The notes below the pieces were generated by a model, which worked only from the letters and a program-made list of their open reading frames with translations, did no database searches and had not been told where the DNA came from. The translations under genes were made by a program, and so were the position numbers. DNA of 64,000 nt from Aurantibacter crassamenti (GTDB taxonomy: Bacteria; Bacteroidota; Bacteroidia; Flavobacteriales; Flavobacteriaceae). This document shows, one piece after another, positions 25,207 to 31,426 of the stretch; positions within the stretch are counted from its first letter, which is position 1; each line of letters starts with the position of its first letter. Location of the stretch: contig NZ_JAFBGM010000002.1 in the NCBI RefSeq assembly GCF_016811105.1, positions 682,001 through 746,000 on the forward strand. The letters run 5' to 3'.

Positions 25207-26916
25207 ATGGATAACATTATAACTATTGCCAAAACTTGGCTTACTGATTTTTTTGACGCCGATGTAAGATCGCAGGTACAACACCTAATTGACAACGATA
25301 CTGAAGAATTAAAGGATCGTTTTTATAAAAATATGGAGTTCGGTACAGGTGGTATGCGCGGTATGATGGGTGTTGGCACCAATAGAATTAATAAATATAC
25401 TTTAGGAAAAAGTACTCAAGGCTTAAGTAATTATCTTAATGCTTCTTATAAAGACGAAGATATTAAAGTGGTTATTGCCTTCGATTGTCGTCACAATAGC
25501 GATACACTAGCAAGAACGGTTGCGGAAGTTTTTTCAGCAAACGGAATAAAAGTTTTTCTCTTTTCTGAATTACGCACCACTCCTGAACTTTCATTTGCAG
25601 TTCGTCATTTAGATTGTCATGCCGGTATTGTTTTAACCGCATCACATAATCCGCCAGAATATAATGGCTATAAAGTTTACTGGACAGATGGCGGACAAAT
25701 AGTACCACCACAAGACGGTGAAATTATTTCAGAAATAAACGGACTTAATTTTGAGGATATTAATTTTAATGGGGATGATAGCCTTATTGAACTAATAGAT
25801 AAAGAAGTTGATGAATCTTTTATGGAAGCATCTGTAGCCAACGGAAATTTTAATGCAGCTGGAAAAGATGATTTTAAAATTGTATTCACCTCATTACACG
25901 GAACTTCAATAACTGCAATACCTGAAGTATTAAAACGTGCCGGATATAAGAATGTTACTATAATTGAAGAACAGGCTAAACCTGACGGGAACTTCCCCAC
26001 GGTAAAATCACCAAACCCTGAAGAACCAGAAGCACTTTCAATGGCAATTGCCAAAGCAGAAGAAATTGGCGCTGACATGGTAGTAGGTACCGACCCTGAT
26101 AGTGATCGTTTAGGTATTGCGGTTAGAAACCTAGAAGGTATAATGGAAATTGTCAACGGTAATCAGGCAATGATTTTAATGACTAAGTTCCTTTTAGAAA
26201 AGCAAAAACAAAAAGGTTTTAAAGGCAATGAGTTTGTTGCAACAACAATAGTTTCTACGCCAATGATGGAAGCAATGGCAAAAGCTTATGGCGTTGAATT
26301 TAAAACGGCACTTACTGGTTTTAAATGGATAGGAAAAATGATAAAAGACTTTCCACAATCGAACTTCTTAGGGGGTGGTGAAGAAAGTTTCGGCTATATG
26401 GTAGGTGATTTTGTACGTGATAAAGATGCAGTAACGGCTACCCTATTAGCTTGTGAAATTGCAACTCAGGCAAAAGCAAATGGAAGTTCTTTCTACAAAG
26501 ACCTTATATATTGTTATGTTGATTATGGCTATTACAAAGAACACCTGGTTTCATTGACTAAAAAGGGAATTTCTGGCGCTGAAGAAATCAAACAAATGTT
26601 AATTGATTTCAAAGAGAATCCGGTTAAATCTGTTGCTGGCTCAAAAGTAAAATGGATTGAAGATTACAACACTTCAATTGCCACCAACGTGATAACTGGT
26701 GAAGAAAAAGCTATAGACATTCCAAAATCAAATGTTTTAATTTATGAAACAGAAGATGGCACGCGTGTAGCAGCTAGACCAAGCGGAACAGAACCAAAAG
26801 TGAAATTTTACATTAGCACCAATACTGTTTTAGATAAAGCGGAAAATTTCAAAAAAGTTACAAATGAACTCAATGACAAAATTGAGCGCATTTTGAGTGA
26901 ACTTAACCTTGGTTAA
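25207..26916 (+). CDS. Phosphoglucomutase/phosphomannomutase
   Basis: Protein of 569 residues, in the long alpha-D-phosphohexomutase group. The catalytic phosphoserine is S146 in TASHNPP, the metal loop is DPDSDR at residues 296-301, the sugar-specificity loop is GGGEESFGYM near 388-397, and the phosphate-binding RPSGTEPKVK is near 520. The enzyme interconverts hexose 6- and 1-phosphates in the cytoplasm. It connects glucose 6-phosphate to glycogen, trehalose and envelope sugars encoded elsewhere in this window. Its stop codon overlaps the ATG of the ABC transporter by one base, so the two are translationally coupled. Confidence 0.93.
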   Translation: MDNIITIAKTWLTDFFDADVRSQVQHLIDNDTEELKDRFYKNMEFGTGGMRGMMGVGTNRINKYTLGKSTQGLSNYLNASYKDEDIKVVIAFDCRHNSDTLARTVAEVFSANGIKVFLFSELRTTPELSFAVRHLDCHAGIVLTASHNPPEYNGYKVYWTDGGQIVPPQDGEIISEINGLNFEDINFNGDDSLIELIDKEVDESFMEASVANGNFNAAGKDDFKIVFTSLHGTSITAIPEVLKRAGYKNVTIIEEQAKPDGNFPTVKSPNPEEPEALSMAIAKAEEIGADMVVGTDPDSDRLGIAVRNLEGIMEIVNGNQAMILMTKFLLEKQKQKGFKGNEFVATTIVSTPMMEAMAKAYGVEFKTALTGFKWIGKMIKDFPQSNFLGGGEESFGYMVGDFVRDKDAVTATLLACEIATQAKANGSSFYKDLIYCYVDYGYYKEHLVSLTKKGISGAEEIKQMLIDFKENPVKSVAGSKVKWIEDYNTSIATNVITGEEKAIDIPKSNVLIYETEDGTRVAARPSGTEPKVKFYISTNTVLDKAENFKKVTNELNDKIERILSELNLG

Positions 26917-28739
26917 TGGACTATTTTAAAAAGATTCTTCGCTTTGCGAAGCCTTATAGTAGCTACGGCTATCTCAATATTTTCTTTAATGTACTTTACG
27001 CACTTTTTAGCGCATTATCTTTTGCTGCCCTAATACCAATGCTTGATGTGCTTTTTACACCTGAAAAAAAGGTGTTTAAAGAACCCATTTACGAGGGCAT
27101 GGCGAACATTAAAGATTATTTACAAGAATATATTAATTATAGAGTTACCGCTTATTCTGGTGATGACGACATGAAAGGCCTAGTTCTCGTAATTGGTCTA
27201 GTTTTAATACTGTTCTTACTTAAGAATTTTTTCAATTATTTGGCAATGTATTTCATTACCTTTTTACGCAATGGGGTTTTGAAAGATATTAGAAATAAAA
27301 TGTTTCATAAAATCACTGAATTGCCCATTTCTTATTACTCTGAAAAAAGAAAAGGTGATGTAATTGCACGTATAACTTCAGATGTTTTAGAGATTCAACA
27401 TTCATTTTTATCAGTTTTAGAACTAATAGTTCGTGAGCCCCTGACTATATTATTTACCATCATAATAATGTTTGGAATAAGCGCCAAACTAACTTTATTT
27501 GTTTTCATCTTTATTCCAGTTGCCGGAGCAATTATTTCAAGAATTGGTAAATCATTAAAAAAACAATCTGATAAGGTTCAAGAAGAGCAAGGTCAATTTT
27601 TGTCTATCGTTGAAGAAACCCTTGCGGGACTGCGAGTTGTAAAAGCCTTTAATTCGGAATCACGTTTTTATAAAACTTTTTCAAATTCAACACAACGCTT
27701 TTTTGATTACAGCAACAAACTACTCAATCGGCAGAATTTGGCATCACCAACAGGAGAATTCTTGGGCATCTTAGTTATTGGTGTATTATTATGGTTTGGT
27801 GGCAAAATGGTTTTAGTTGATAAAACTTTAGATGCATCTTCCTTTATTGCATACATGGGCTTAGCTTATAACATCTTAACACCTGCAAAATCAATAAGTA
27901 AAGCGTCATACGGAGTTAAAAGAGGTAATGCAGCCGCAGAACGAGTTTTAGAAATTCTTGAAACTGAGAATCCTATAAGTGATAAACCAGATGCGGTTGA
28001 AAAAACAAGTTTTGATTCAGGCATAGAATTAAAAAATATTTCCTTTAAATATGAAGATGAATATGTACTAAAACAATTCAATCTTATTGTACCTAAAGGT
28101 GAAACTGTTGCTCTTGTTGGTCAGTCAGGTAGCGGTAAAAGTACTATTGCCAACTTAGTAACTCGCTTTTATGATGTAAATGAAGGCGAAATTAAAATTG
28201 ATGGTATCGATATAAAAGATATGACTAAAAAGTCACTTAGAAGTCTAATGGGACTTGTTACACAAGATTCTATACTTTTTAATGATACGGTGGCTAAGAA
28301 TATTTCTTTAGGCAATGAAAATGCTACAATTGAAGAAATTACAGAAGCAGCAAAAATTGCCAATGCCCATGAGTTTATTGCTGAGTTGCCGGAAGGTTAC
28401 CATACGAATATTGGTGATAGTGGAAATAAATTAAGTGGCGGACAGAAACAACGATTATCAATTGCACGAGCGGTTTTGAAAAATCCACCAATCATGATTT
28501 TAGATGAAGCCACTTCAGCATTAGATACCGAAAGTGAACGTCTGGTACAAGATGCGTTAGAGAAAATGATGCGTAATCGTACTTCTATAGTTATTGCGCA
28601 TCGCCTTTCTACTATACAAAATGCAAATACAATTGTTGTTTTACAAAAAGGTGAAATAGTAGAACAAGGATCACATGAAACACTTCTTGCCAAAAATGGC
28701 ACATATAAGAAATTGGTTGAAATGCAATCTTTAGGATAA
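26916..28739 (+). CDS. ABC exporter, fused permease and ATPase (MsbA-like)
   Basis: Protein of 607 residues. The N-terminal half has six membrane helices (about residues 20-320) of the type I exporter fold; the C-terminal half is the ATPase with Walker A GQSGSGKST at 402-410, signature LSGGQKQR near 505-512, and Walker B ending in D530-E531. The length and layout match MsbA-like lipid or drug exporters, working as homodimers in the inner membrane. Cargo is not determined. It overlaps the phosphohexomutase gene by one base and ends 105 bases before the ECF sigma gene. Confidence 0.92.
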   Translation: MDYFKKILRFAKPYSSYGYLNIFFNVLYALFSALSFAALIPMLDVLFTPEKKVFKEPIYEGMANIKDYLQEYINYRVTAYSGDDDMKGLVLVIGLVLILFLLKNFFNYLAMYFITFLRNGVLKDIRNKMFHKITELPISYYSEKRKGDVIARITSDVLEIQHSFLSVLELIVREPLTILFTIIIMFGISAKLTLFVFIFIPVAGAIISRIGKSLKKQSDKVQEEQGQFLSIVEETLAGLRVVKAFNSESRFYKTFSNSTQRFFDYSNKLLNRQNLASPTGEFLGILVIGVLLWFGGKMVLVDKTLDASSFIAYMGLAYNILTPAKSISKASYGVKRGNAAAERVLEILETENPISDKPDAVEKTSFDSGIELKNISFKYEDEYVLKQFNLIVPKGETVALVGQSGSGKSTIANLVTRFYDVNEGEIKIDGIDIKDMTKKSLRSLMGLVTQDSILFNDTVAKNISLGNENATIEEITEAAKIANAHEFIAELPEGYHTNIGDSGNKLSGGQKQRLSIARAVLKNPPIMILDEATSALDTESERLVQDALEKMMRNRTSIVIAHRLSTIQNANTIVVLQKGEIVEQGSHETLLAKNGTYKKLVEMQSLG

Positions 28740-28760: not shown

Positions 28761-28795
28761 ATAGCGAATTATCACCATATTCGTATAGCGAATTA
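28761..28795 (+). repeat. Direct repeat upstream of the ECF sigma gene
   Basis: ATAGCGAATTA occurs at 28761-28771 and again at 28785-28795, a period of 24 bases (just over two helical turns). The second copy also forms ATTCG-TATAG-CGAAT, a small inverted repeat. It lies 50-84 bases before the sigma start and may be a regulatory or promoter element of the module. Confidence 0.42.
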
Positions 28796-28844
28796 AACCT
28801 TTTTCTATATCTAGAGTCTAATCATTAAACACAAGAACTAAATA

Positions 28845-29387
28845 TTGGTTGCAGAAGACGACTTAGTAGATCAGTTAAAACAAGCTGACACCCAATCAAA
28901 AGCTTTCGAAGTGCTTATAAACACCTATAAAGAGCGTTTGTATTGGCATATACGTAGAATTGTGTTAGATCATGATGATGCTGATGATGTGTTGCAAAAC
29001 ACTTTCATTAAGGTTTTTAAAAATATAAATGGTTTTAAGGGTGACAGCCAACTATATTCATGGATGTATCGTATTGCTACGAATGAATCTTTGAGTTTTA
29101 TGAAATCCAAAGCAAGGAAATTAGGCGTAAATAATGAAGAACTTCATGATCGTTTAGCAAATAACTTGCAAGCCGATGTTTATTTTGATGGAAATGAAAT
29201 TCAACTCAAATTACAACAGGCAATAGCTAAGCTGCCAGAAAAACAAAAACTGGTGTTTAATATGAAGTATTTTGACGAATTGAAATACGAAGAAATATCT
29301 AAAATTTTAGACACTTCGGTAGGTGGGTTAAAAGCCTCGTATCACTTAGCCATAAAAAAATTAGAAAATTATTTAAAAGAAGATTAA
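28845..29387 (+). CDS. ECF RNA polymerase sigma factor
   Basis: Protein of 180 residues. Region 2 spans about residues 22-90 with the core-binding DADDVLQNTFIKVFKNI and the -10-reading SQLYSWMYRIATNESLSFM; region 4 spans about 125-175 with LPEKQKLVFNMKYFDELKYEEISKIL and a helix-turn-helix. Such factors redirect RNA polymerase in response to envelope signals. The start is a TTG at 28845: no in-frame ATG occurs until well inside region 2, and the first residues VAEDDLVDQLKQ already match the family's helix. It is the first gene of a three-gene unit with a putative anti-sigma factor and an exported protein. Confidence 0.9.
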   Translation: MVAEDDLVDQLKQADTQSKAFEVLINTYKERLYWHIRRIVLDHDDADDVLQNTFIKVFKNINGFKGDSQLYSWMYRIATNESLSFMKSKARKLGVNNEELHDRLANNLQADVYFDGNEIQLKLQQAIAKLPEKQKLVFNMKYFDELKYEEISKILDTSVGGLKASYHLAIKKLENYLKED

Positions 29388-29419
29388 ACCTTTTAACAAA
29401 TTGATAGTCAAAGAATAAG

Positions 29420-29932
29420 ATGAAAGCATCAAATAAAAATAACGGATTTAAAACACCTGAGGGCTACTTTGAAGGCCTAACGGATAAATTGCTCAGCAAA
29501 ATAGCTGAAGAGCAGTCTGTTTTACCAAAAGAAGCCGGTTTTAAAGCTCCTGAGGGTTATTTTGATACTTTACAACAAAACATACTGCAAAAAATTGATA
29601 CGGCAGAACCTAAGGTTATACAGTTAAATCCGTACCGTAAATATTATTTTGCAGCGGCCGCAGTTGCTGCTGTAGCTTTAGTGATTTTCGGAATTAATTT
29701 CAACTCAACTGAAAGTCCCACTTTTGAAGGCTTGGCAGACTCAGATATAGAAAATTACTTTGAAAATAATACGATGGAATTATCATCATATGAGCTTGCA
29801 GAAGTGATTTCATTTGACGAATTAGACATTAATGATATACTAGACAACCAGCTTATTGACGACCACATTATTGATTATCTTGACGATAATATTGACGATT
29901 TAGATGAATTAAATCTTGAAACCGATGAATAG
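29420..29932 (+). CDS. Putative single-pass anti-sigma factor with a duplicated motif
   Basis: Protein of 170 residues. The N-terminal part carries the same motif twice, GFKTPEGYFEGL at residues 9-20 and GFKAPEGYFDTL at 40-51, 31 residues apart, each followed by a helix. One membrane segment covers about residues 76-92. The remaining 75 residues are very acidic (ending DYLDDNIDDLDELN), with few basic residues, and would lie in the periplasm. Gene order right after an ECF sigma gene and the single membrane pass argue for an anti-sigma role; that is inference, as the zinc motif of classical anti-sigma domains is absent. It overlaps the next gene by 8 bases. Confidence 0.7.
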   Translation: MKASNKNNGFKTPEGYFEGLTDKLLSKIAEEQSVLPKEAGFKAPEGYFDTLQQNILQKIDTAEPKVIQLNPYRKYYFAAAAVAAVALVIFGINFNSTESPTFEGLADSDIENYFENNTMELSSYELAEVISFDELDINDILDNQLIDDHIIDYLDDNIDDLDELNLETDE

Positions 29933-30383
29933 CTTAAAAAACTTAACCGTAATTATATTTCTACTCACCACAACTGCTTTTTATTCGCAAAACAAGCAAG
30001 ATTGGGATAAAATAAAGTCGCTCAAAGTTGCTTATTTTACTGAGCAATTAGAACTTACCAGTAATGAAGCAGAGGCGTTTTGGCCAGTATATAACAAGTA
30101 TGAAAAAGAACGTTATCTACTCAGAAAAAACGGATATGACGAGCTAAGAAATAGAATGAAAGAGGCTGATAGTTTTAATGAAAAAGAAGCCGACAAATTA
30201 TTAGATGAATACTTAGATTACGAAGAAAATGAAGAAGAATTAGATAAGAATTTCTTCGTCAAAATAAGTAAAATTATTACGGCCAAAAAGACTTTGAAAC
30301 TAATACGTGCTGAGCAAGATTTCAAACACAAACTAATTCGTCAATACCGTAAAAAGCACCAAGACGACAAAGGAAATCGTTAG
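29925..30383 (+). CDS. Exported charged helical protein of the ECF module (Spy/CpxP-like architecture)
   Basis: Protein of 152 residues from the ATG at 29925, which overlaps the preceding stop by 8 bases; the upstream TTG at 29916 is less likely. Residues 1-21 are a signal peptide ending in FYSQ. The mature part is almost entirely helical and highly charged, with QLELTSNEAEAFWPVYNKYEKER near the start, the LTxxEAxxFWPxYxxY pattern typical of flavobacterial proteins named as sensors of ECF sigma factors. The architecture resembles periplasmic chaperones such as Spy or CpxP. A role in sensing or buffering envelope stress is inferred from context. Confidence 0.75.
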   Translation: MNSLKNLTVIIFLLTTTAFYSQNKQDWDKIKSLKVAYFTEQLELTSNEAEAFWPVYNKYEKERYLLRKNGYDELRNRMKEADSFNEKEADKLLDEYLDYEENEEELDKNFFVKISKIITAKKTLKLIRAEQDFKHKLIRQYRKKHQDDKGNR

Positions 30384-30397
30384 GTAGGCTATTTAAA

Positions 30398-31426
30398 TTA
30401 TCTGAAAATAAGTTTAGAAATTCGATTCTGACCAGCTGCATATGCTACAGAATCATTTAAAAATCTCAGCGTGTAAAATGATTCATCTGAGAGCGTTTTC
30501 CAATGTTCACCCATATCATTTGAATATGAAATTCCAGTGAAACCTAAGGCAACTATCCCATTTCCTTTTGAATTTGGCACAAATTGAACACAGCTTTTAT
30601 AATTAGGAGCTTGACCGTCGGCAATCAATTTCCAGGTTTTACCGCCATTTTTAGTAATTGCTTTATTCTGTTTATTCTCATTTGGTTTAGTGTAATCACC
30701 ACCGACAACAATTCCTATATTTTCGTTATAAAAGTCCATCGAATAAATACCCTGAGTTGGTTCTTCTTTCACTATTGGAGTTTCTTGAATCTCCCAAGTT
30801 TTTCCTTTATCCGGAGAAAAATAAACACGACTACTAGTAGTTGCAATCCAAGTTTTATTTCCTTTAACCACAATATTTGTATTACTCGCAGCAAAAGCAC
30901 CTTCACCTTCTAATGCTTGAGGCAGTTCATCACATGTAAGTTTAGCCCAATGATGGCCGCCATCACGAGTTATAATTATTGACAAACATCCGTACATAAA
31001 ATCGCCTACAGCAATCCCTTCTCTATTATTCCAAAATGTCATTGCATCATAAAACACTTTTTCACCCGTCTCATCATAGACTAAATCCATCACGTCATCT
31101 TCACCGGTTTTGTAGAGCAAAGCTGGATTAGCGACAGAAAGCATAAAAAAGTCAGTAGCATTATGAGCTACAGCTCTATATTCAGGAACAATTGAACCAA
31201 ACGTTTGAACACTAGCGCGTACTTTTCCACTTGATAATCCTATTGTACCAAAAACACCTTTGTTCGCAGCAAATACCAAGTTATTACCCATTAAATCAAT
31301 AGCTCTTATACTCAAAGAATCTTCATACAAATTTTCAATTGCTACAGATGTAAAAGGAGCTTTCTGATTCTTTTTGGCGCATGAACTGCCTAAAACCAAA
31401 ATCATTAAAATAAAAAAACGCGTCAT
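30398..31426 (-). CDS. BNR/YCF48-like beta-propeller lipoprotein
   Basis: Protein of 342 residues. The N-terminus ends in the lipobox LGSSC with C16 as the lipidated Cys. At least three Asp-box-type turns are visible: TRDGGHHWAKL, SPDKGKTWEI and TKNGGKTWKL, and a further SNDMGEHWKTL, each ending a propeller blade. Such propellers occur in sialidases, photosystem assembly factors (YCF48) and many exported proteins without enzymatic role. No sialidase catalytic Arg triad or Tyr-Glu pair is apparent, so I would not call it a sialidase. It is convergent with the ECF module, with a 14-base gap. Confidence 0.8.
   Translation of the reverse strand: MTRFFILMILVLGSSCAKKNQKAPFTSVAIENLYEDSLSIRAIDLMGNNLVFAANKGVFGTIGLSSGKVRASVQTFGSIVPEYRAVAHNATDFFMLSVANPALLYKTGEDDVMDLVYDETGEKVFYDAMTFWNNREGIAVGDFMYGCLSIIITRDGGHHWAKLTCDELPQALEGEGAFAASNTNIVVKGNKTWIATTSSRVYFSPDKGKTWEIQETPIVKEEPTQGIYSMDFYNENIGIVVGGDYTKPNENKQNKAITKNGGKTWKLIADGQAPNYKSCVQFVPNSKGNGIVALGFTGISYSNDMGEHWKTLSDESFYTLRFLNDSVAYAAGQNRISKLIFR

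Follow-up and report, generated by a model that had tools for sequence, protein, structure and literature searches.

We propose that three adjacent plus-strand genes of Aurantibacter crassamenti, at positions 28845-30383 of the window (the whole 64,000-nucleotide stretch of DNA analysed), form an autoregulated envelope-stress module, in which an ECF sigma factor is followed by a single-pass membrane protein with a repeated motif, acting as its anti-sigma factor, and by an exported protein resembling Spy, CpxP and CnrX. We assign this reading a probability of roughly 0.78. Envelope-stress control in the Bacteroidota is poorly mapped, and a flavobacterial transcriptome study, in the part of it available to us, left its ECF regulons unassigned (PMC9723704). 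The module can be put to the test: it supplies a candidate design of anti-sigma factor in which one short motif is repeated in tandem, a defined promoter consensus that occurs at two successive autoregulatory sites, and a predicted set of target genes in which Spy-like chaperones are central. The host genome (4.52 Mb in two contigs) groups with the Flavobacteriaceae, close to the named relatives Kriegella, Maribacter, Pricia and Arenibacter. All three genes, together with every detail of the locus described in an earlier sequence-only reading, were present when the sequence was read again. An ABC exporter gene lies upstream of the module (26916-28739) and a BNR-like lipoprotein gene lies downstream on the other strand (30398-31426); each recurs in its place beside the module in many relatives.

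The gene order is strongly conserved. The repeat protein was detected in 132 of 149 family genomes (115 of the 125 good ones), mostly as a single copy per genome, and a divergent single-motif form sits beside the sigma and third genes in three further family genomes. We examined 109 family loci drawn from the 132 genomes with a match, leaving out two loci that repeat the window (L001 and L002) and a FecR paralogue (L052). The sigma factor, the repeat protein and the third protein were encoded in the same order on one strand in 109/109 loci, with the third gene broken into two frames in one of them (L044). Repeat-protein homologues without an adjacent ECF gene, which had been set beforehand as the observation that would count against a sigma/anti-sigma pairing, numbered 0 of 109, and this invariant adjacency supports the pairing. 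The same order is also found far outside the family. Among 119 genomes sampled at the level of the order, 47 had a match to the repeat protein, and the sigma gene adjoined it in all 22 loci inspected (L201-L222), with the third gene recognised by profile in 20; at the level of the phylum, 33 of 99 genomes had a match, and both partners flanked the repeat protein in 18 of 21 loci. A scan seeded by the third protein yielded 80 named loci, 69 of them complete by profile. Each of the remaining 11 had one gene that escaped the profile, and the module was recognised on inspection: in nine the middle protein carries a single motif (six of these on contigs named Flavobacterium), and in two it was the sigma gene, which was seen by eye and in one case is truncated at the end of the contig. 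No plasmid-borne homologues were found. One locus, L163, lies on a contig labelled Sphingobacterium thalpophilum and resembles the Flavobacterium genus type, perhaps through an error of binning or naming.

The first gene (28845-29387, plus strand), identified from its open reading frame and profile matches, encodes an ordinary ECF sigma-70 factor with only regions 2 and 4 in its 180 residues (Sigma70_r2, PF04542, E 1.3e-12; Sigma70_r4_2, PF08281, E 6.8e-15; each passing its curated cut-off). Its TTG start, noted earlier, is a conserved trait: only GTG or TTG was available as a sigma start in 153/182 loci, whereas ATG was the start picked for the repeat gene in 171/180 and for the third gene in 161/189, with picks for these two genes made so as to favour ATG. 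The conserved TTG or GTG start is a possible translational brake on the sigma factor.

The second gene (29420-29932, plus strand, ATG start) encodes a protein of 170 residues that carries GFKTPEGYF at residues 9-17 and GFKAPEGYF at residues 40-48, 31 residues apart as previously described. Each is the beginning of a longer unit, the first spanning residues 9-28 (GFKTPEGYFEGLTDKLLSKI, 29444-29503, plus strand) and the second residues 40-59 (GFKAPEGYFDTLQQNILQKI, 29537-29596, plus strand), and the unit consensus is F-K-[VT]-P-E-[GN]-Y-F-[ED]-x-[LF]-E-x-x-[IL]-x-x-K-[IL]. A degenerate DNA pattern for the motif has two matches in the whole 4.52-Mb genome, each of them at this locus, and the reversed pattern has none. 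Because P13, Y16 and P44 are invariant among 49 aligned homologues and at least two copies are present by a strict pattern in 101/109 family loci, the motif is not a product of chance. The protein has one hydrophobic segment, as the sequence-only reading had it, placed by sequence and hydropathy as a transmembrane segment at about residues 75-95 (29642-29704, plus strand), followed by a periplasmic tail of 75 residues (96-170; 29705-29929, plus strand) with a net charge of -26 by the script's placement of the membrane segment. The tail carries a negative net charge in 176/176 loci. Two matches to the repeat protein, G093:C23 and G121:C1, contain one internal TAA and may be broken genes or alignments that run past a stop.

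The repeat protein falls outside several established anti-sigma families. The HisX3CysX2Cys motif of zinc anti-sigma factors, which is optional in class I, is missing, as had been noted, since residues 1-74 contain neither His nor Cys; no ASD family profile of the class I four-helix ASDI domain was found in the window protein with Pfam or NCBIfam, or among the Pfam matches of its 49 homologues; and a FecR domain is absent. A weak second match in the same genome, L052 (C1:2059300-2063500), is itself a FecR-type anti-sigma factor (PF04773, E 1.1e-20) that adjoins another ECF gene and aligns to the repeat protein at the helix preceding the membrane. Three distant loci, L323, L324 and L326, have the same gene order and encode possible hybrid proteins, in which a single motif-like helix precedes the membrane and the N-terminal region looks like a classical anti-sigma domain by its sequence. 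A profile search of this region confirmed no classical anti-sigma domain, and no ASDI relatives of the L326 hybrid were found among solved structures. From these possible hybrids we hypothesise that the FKxPEGYF unit may derive from helix 4 of class I domains, which binds sigma2.

How many copies of the motif a protein carries varies. Among 232 sigma/repeat-protein pairs (6 of 238 pairs were dropped before the motif and DCA counts), 170 proteins have two copies, 46 have one, 14 have three, one has four and one has six, an overall range of 1-6 in tandem, and the first and membrane-proximal copies share one common consensus. Six tandem FxVPxGYF units are present in the anti-sigma-like protein of locus L310 (1498-2424, minus strand), and single-copy forms, found in Flavobacterium and several families, retain the whole module. 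It had been suggested that the two motif copies make up the sigma-binding surface. Binding of sigma by the FKxPEGYF motifs is plausible from a structural model, but a fixed surface of two motifs is contradicted by the range of copy number.

The model was built from the Arenibacter aquaticus pair (L156), with the sigma factor and the cytosolic part of its partner as one read-through chain and an alignment of 33 paired rows (1 of 34 in-frame pairs, L172, was dropped). It has a mean pLDDT of 78.4 and a pTM of 0.71, the five models ranging from 59 to 78. The helix at 212-222, which corresponds to motif 1, falls within a block scoring pLDDT 87, and the blocks of motif 2 score 61-74. The modelled sigma factor superimposes on that of SigW/RsiW (Z 17.4, rmsd 2.4, 156 aligned) and of CnrH/CnrY (4CXF; Z 16.2, rmsd 2.2, 154 aligned), whereas ECF sigma chains bound to RNA polymerase fit it only at an rmsd above 20. 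This compact shape, the closed one that sigma adopts when bound by an anti-sigma factor, agrees with an anti-sigma factor that wraps around sigma, although free ECF factors may be compact too. DCA between sigma and motif 1 or the membrane-proximal motif (232 and 170 pairs, respectively) gave best z values of 4.2-5.5, no higher than the 4.0-5.7 of shuffled pairs.

These data bear on two further ways in which the repeats might work. The protein may be an anti-sigma factor of which only the membrane-proximal motif touches sigma, with the extra copies serving the membrane surface, oligomerisation or contact with additional sigma molecules. The retention of the whole module by single-copy forms, and the 46/232 pairs with one copy, fit this arrangement, but the confident helix in the fused model is motif 1 and not the membrane-proximal motif 2, and both copies hold the same consensus; we regard it as possible but doubtful. 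Less probable still, and in our judgement unlikely, is that the protein is a multivalent sponge in which every FKxPEGYF unit binds sigma as an independent helix and the 1-6 units set how many sigma molecules are held, or how tightly. If this were true, a stress response found across the phylum would be tuned by repeat number.

The sequence-only reading had missed two promoter-like elements in the module, which we call P1 and P2. The predicted ECF-type promoter P1 (28793-28821, plus strand) consists of TTAAACC (28793-28799), a 16-base spacer and GTCTAA, with its GTC at 28816, 29 nt ahead of the sigma start. Predicted promoter P2 (TTAAACC-N16-GTCAAA; 29384-29412, plus strand) overlaps the sigma stop codon and lies largely in the 32-base gap between the sigma and repeat genes, with its GTC at 29407, 13 nt ahead of the repeat-gene ATG. 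In the genome of A. crassamenti, the strict form of the motif occurs only at P1 and P2 (control, 0). Both elements are widely conserved. Upstream of sigma, AAACY-N16-GTC is present in 161/185 loci and absent from 24. The gap between sigma and repeat genes is usually 30-36 bases long and contains AAACC(T/A)TT followed by GTC(A/T)(A/T)A; AAAC[CT]-N-GTC was found in 155/176 gaps (absent from 21), with a spacer of exactly 16 in 154, against about 2.9 expected from its density in the loci. GTC lies 11-15 bases ahead of the ATG in 132 of the 155 gaps with the motif, which may leave the anti-sigma mRNA with hardly any leader. The -35-like box (TTAAACC) normally overlaps the sigma stop codon, and where the stop is displaced the box tracks the -10-like element instead; this retention of spacing led us to reject an artefact of coding sequence or of a ribosome-binding site. 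In Flavobacterium-genus loci that lack the motif, TTC or ATC by eye replaces GTC. The loci with TTC or ATC as the -10-like element upstream of sigma are L169, L178, L179, L182, L184, L188 and L190. The 11-base direct repeat described earlier (ATAGCGAATTA; 28761-28771 and 28785-28795, plus strand, 24 bases apart) is present, and its second copy overlaps the conserved -35-like element of P1, but the repeat itself looks unconserved, the bases before TTAAACC differing among 60 upstream rows, and we rejected it as a conserved operator.

The presence of P2, together with the non-ATG sigma start, suggests that the inhibitor would be favoured over sigma. The shared promoter motif also bears on whether the middle protein is an anti-sigma factor at all or an unrelated membrane protein that happens to be encoded beside sigma. 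Neither Pfam nor NCBIfam gave a convincing family match for it, and solved structures included no significant relative, as might be expected of an unrelated protein; nevertheless, its invariant adjacency, its positive-inside topology (which places the motifs on the same side as sigma), the promoter motif and the genetics of a deletion of the similarly arranged cirZ (PMC13114119, as far as it is available) all count against this explanation, which we consider very improbable.

Copies of the motif elsewhere in the genomes lie close to genes for exported proteins. In 22 family genomes, TTAAACYWTT-N13-GTCWWA had 70 matches versus 9 for the reversed pattern, and when the spacer was freed over seven values, 70 of the 96 matches had N13, equivalent to the 16-base spacer of P1 and P2. 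Among the 37 fetched sites other than P1 and P2, an ORF starts 8-70 nt downstream in 32, and 31 of these 32 ORFs have an exported-type N-terminus. By comparison, 2 of 20 off-spacer control sites precede an ORF start, one of them exported-looking (Fisher p 1.6e-8; the 20 are those retrieved out of 25, one off-spacer match lying in a module gap being excluded). Spy-like proteins follow 10 of the 37 sites; of the six that were profile-scanned, five matched DUF4890 and three LTXXQ, all under the curated cut-offs, and the other four were assigned by sequence likeness. Beta-lactamase-fold lipoproteins follow four sites (one scanned, the rest by likeness), small DUF6515-type proteins three (two scanned), and large proteins with carboxypeptidase-regulatory-like starts six (two scanned). 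The 37 sites include L252 (G018), in which the DUF6515 gene directly following the module's third gene has a motif copy of its own.

Within the A. crassamenti genome, TTAAACC-N16-GTCNNA has 9 matches versus 4 for the control, and seven precede ORFs, encoding the sigma factor, the repeat protein, a Spy-like protein, two lipoproteins of the beta-lactamase fold (one scanned), one protein similar to the Porph_ging protein L240 and another similar to DUF6515 proteins. A looser pattern gave 10 matches versus 16 for the control. Because this relaxed count does not exceed its control, regulon calls from the single genome are weak, and support for the regulon comes from position and from recurrence across genomes. 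Among 17 family genomes in which no repeat protein was detected, the motif is present in 4 of the 5 that have the third protein and in 1 of the 12 that lack it (p 0.0099); the single genome that has the motif but not the third protein, G016, is an assembly in about 220 contigs with 91% completeness.

The third gene (29925-30383, plus strand), whose ORF overlaps that of the repeat protein by 8 bases as reported earlier, encodes an exported, all-helical protein of 152 residues from its ATG. The window's protein has no convincing Pfam or NCBIfam match, but among its 52 homologues LTXXQ was matched by 19 (best 2e-5) and Metal_resist by 14 (best 4.8e-4), both with E up to 0.1. Its model consists of four helices (pLDDT 87.4). 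With this model, Foldseek gave no match at E up to 0.001 (best E 0.34, STV), and VIA gave a Z of 7.9 for CnrX (rmsd 6.0, 107 aligned), 7.1 for ZraP, 6.9 for CpxP and 6.2 for Spy, values that unrelated helical proteins also reach. The fold lists are rich in CnrX, NccX, CpxP, ZraP, Spy and STV, with individually weak scores, and taken with the profile matches they favour the earlier description of the protein as Spy/CpxP-like. We infer that it would act on unfolded envelope proteins in the manner of CpxP or Spy. Metal sensing of the CnrX type is unlikely because conserved metal-ligand side chains are absent: no His, Cys or Met column exceeds 30% in 70 third-protein sequences, except H59 at 44%. 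The idea that the acidic tail docks a basic third protein found no support: with a mature net charge of about +1, the protein of this locus is near neutral rather than clearly basic, and the charges of tail and third protein do not co-vary (Spearman 0.03).

Whether the third protein takes part in sensing is less certain. It could be only an output chaperone of the operon, making no contact with the anti-sigma factor and leaving sensing to the tail or to a protease, and we see this as a real possibility, somewhat short of even odds. The missing charge covariation fits such a role, as does the recurrence of a second Spy-like family as a predicted target (the 10/37 sites above). That second family, however, is encoded elsewhere in the genome, whereas the third gene stays with the sigma/repeat pair in 109/109 family loci. 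CpxP, from the same superfamily as the third protein, is a regulator. So is CnrX, also of that superfamily, according to the available part of its description (PMC4598750), whereas the Spy protein encoded after cirYZ in Phocaeicola vulgatus is described, in what is available of that report, as an effector chaperone (PMC13114119).

In the mechanism we favour, the cytoplasmic ECF sigma factor would be kept inactive by the single-pass repeat protein, whose amphipathic FKxPEGYF helices, variable in number (1-6), would grip sigma and hold its two domains closed, and sensing would take place in the periplasm, through the acidic tail together with the exported Spy/CpxP-like protein. Envelope proteins that are damaged or misfolded would be the signal that relieves the anti-sigma factor, by proteolysis or a conformational switch. 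The freed sigma factor would then read TTAAACC-N16-GTC at P1 (its own promoter), at P2 (for the anti-sigma and Spy-like pair) and at a small regulon of exported proteins, comprising Spy-like chaperones, beta-lactamase-fold lipoproteins and outer-membrane proteins. P2 and the weak TTG start of sigma would bias output toward the inhibitor and close a negative feedback loop.

Judged by gene order and deletion effect as given in the available part of a 2026 report, CirYZ-Spy of Phocaeicola vulgatus comes nearest among characterised systems; there, an ECF sigma gene and an anti-sigma gene are followed by a co-transcribed Spy-like gene in an envelope-stress setting, and deletion of cirZ raises expression of cirY, spy and two neighbouring genes (PMC13114119). 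The order of sigma, repeat protein and Spy-like protein in the window matches this arrangement. P. vulgatus belongs to another order of Bacteroidota, the Bacteroidales, and the available text mentions no repeat motif for CirZ and no promoter motif (PMC13114119). CnrH/CnrY/CnrX of Cupriavidus metallidurans likewise combines an ECF sigma factor, a short helical anti-sigma factor that wraps around closed sigma, and a periplasmic helical-hairpin sensor, as described in the accessible parts of two sources (PMC4598750, PMC7406223). Cnr structures are matched by the modelled sigma and, with weak scores, by the third protein, but the anti-sigma factor proposed here has repeats and the third protein is without the conserved His/Cys/Met of CnrX. 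The Cnr gene order, cnrYXH, is also unlike that of the module.

Among Bacteroidota, the EcfO/Reo and Das/Dma (ECF21) systems similarly pair an envelope-stress ECF factor with an adjacent membrane anti-sigma factor (PMC13088901, PMC13114119, as far as these are available). In those accounts Reo and Dma have a long tether to a C-terminal beta-barrel, whereas the repeat protein, at only 170 residues, stops after 75 acidic tail residues, and we rejected a dual-membrane anti-sigma factor of this type; the EcfO targets described are NigD proteins, whereas the targets predicted here include Spy-like proteins. Class I anti-sigma factors such as RseA, RsiW and ChrR share with the repeat protein a single-pass topology, a cytosolic helical inhibitor domain and a gene just after that for sigma, in the part of the source available (PMC7406223), but the repeat protein lacks the four-helix ASDI and zinc motif and is built instead from a repeated unit of roughly 20 residues. 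Relative to these systems, as described in the sources available, the variation in repeat number and the promoter and its predicted regulon are additional features.
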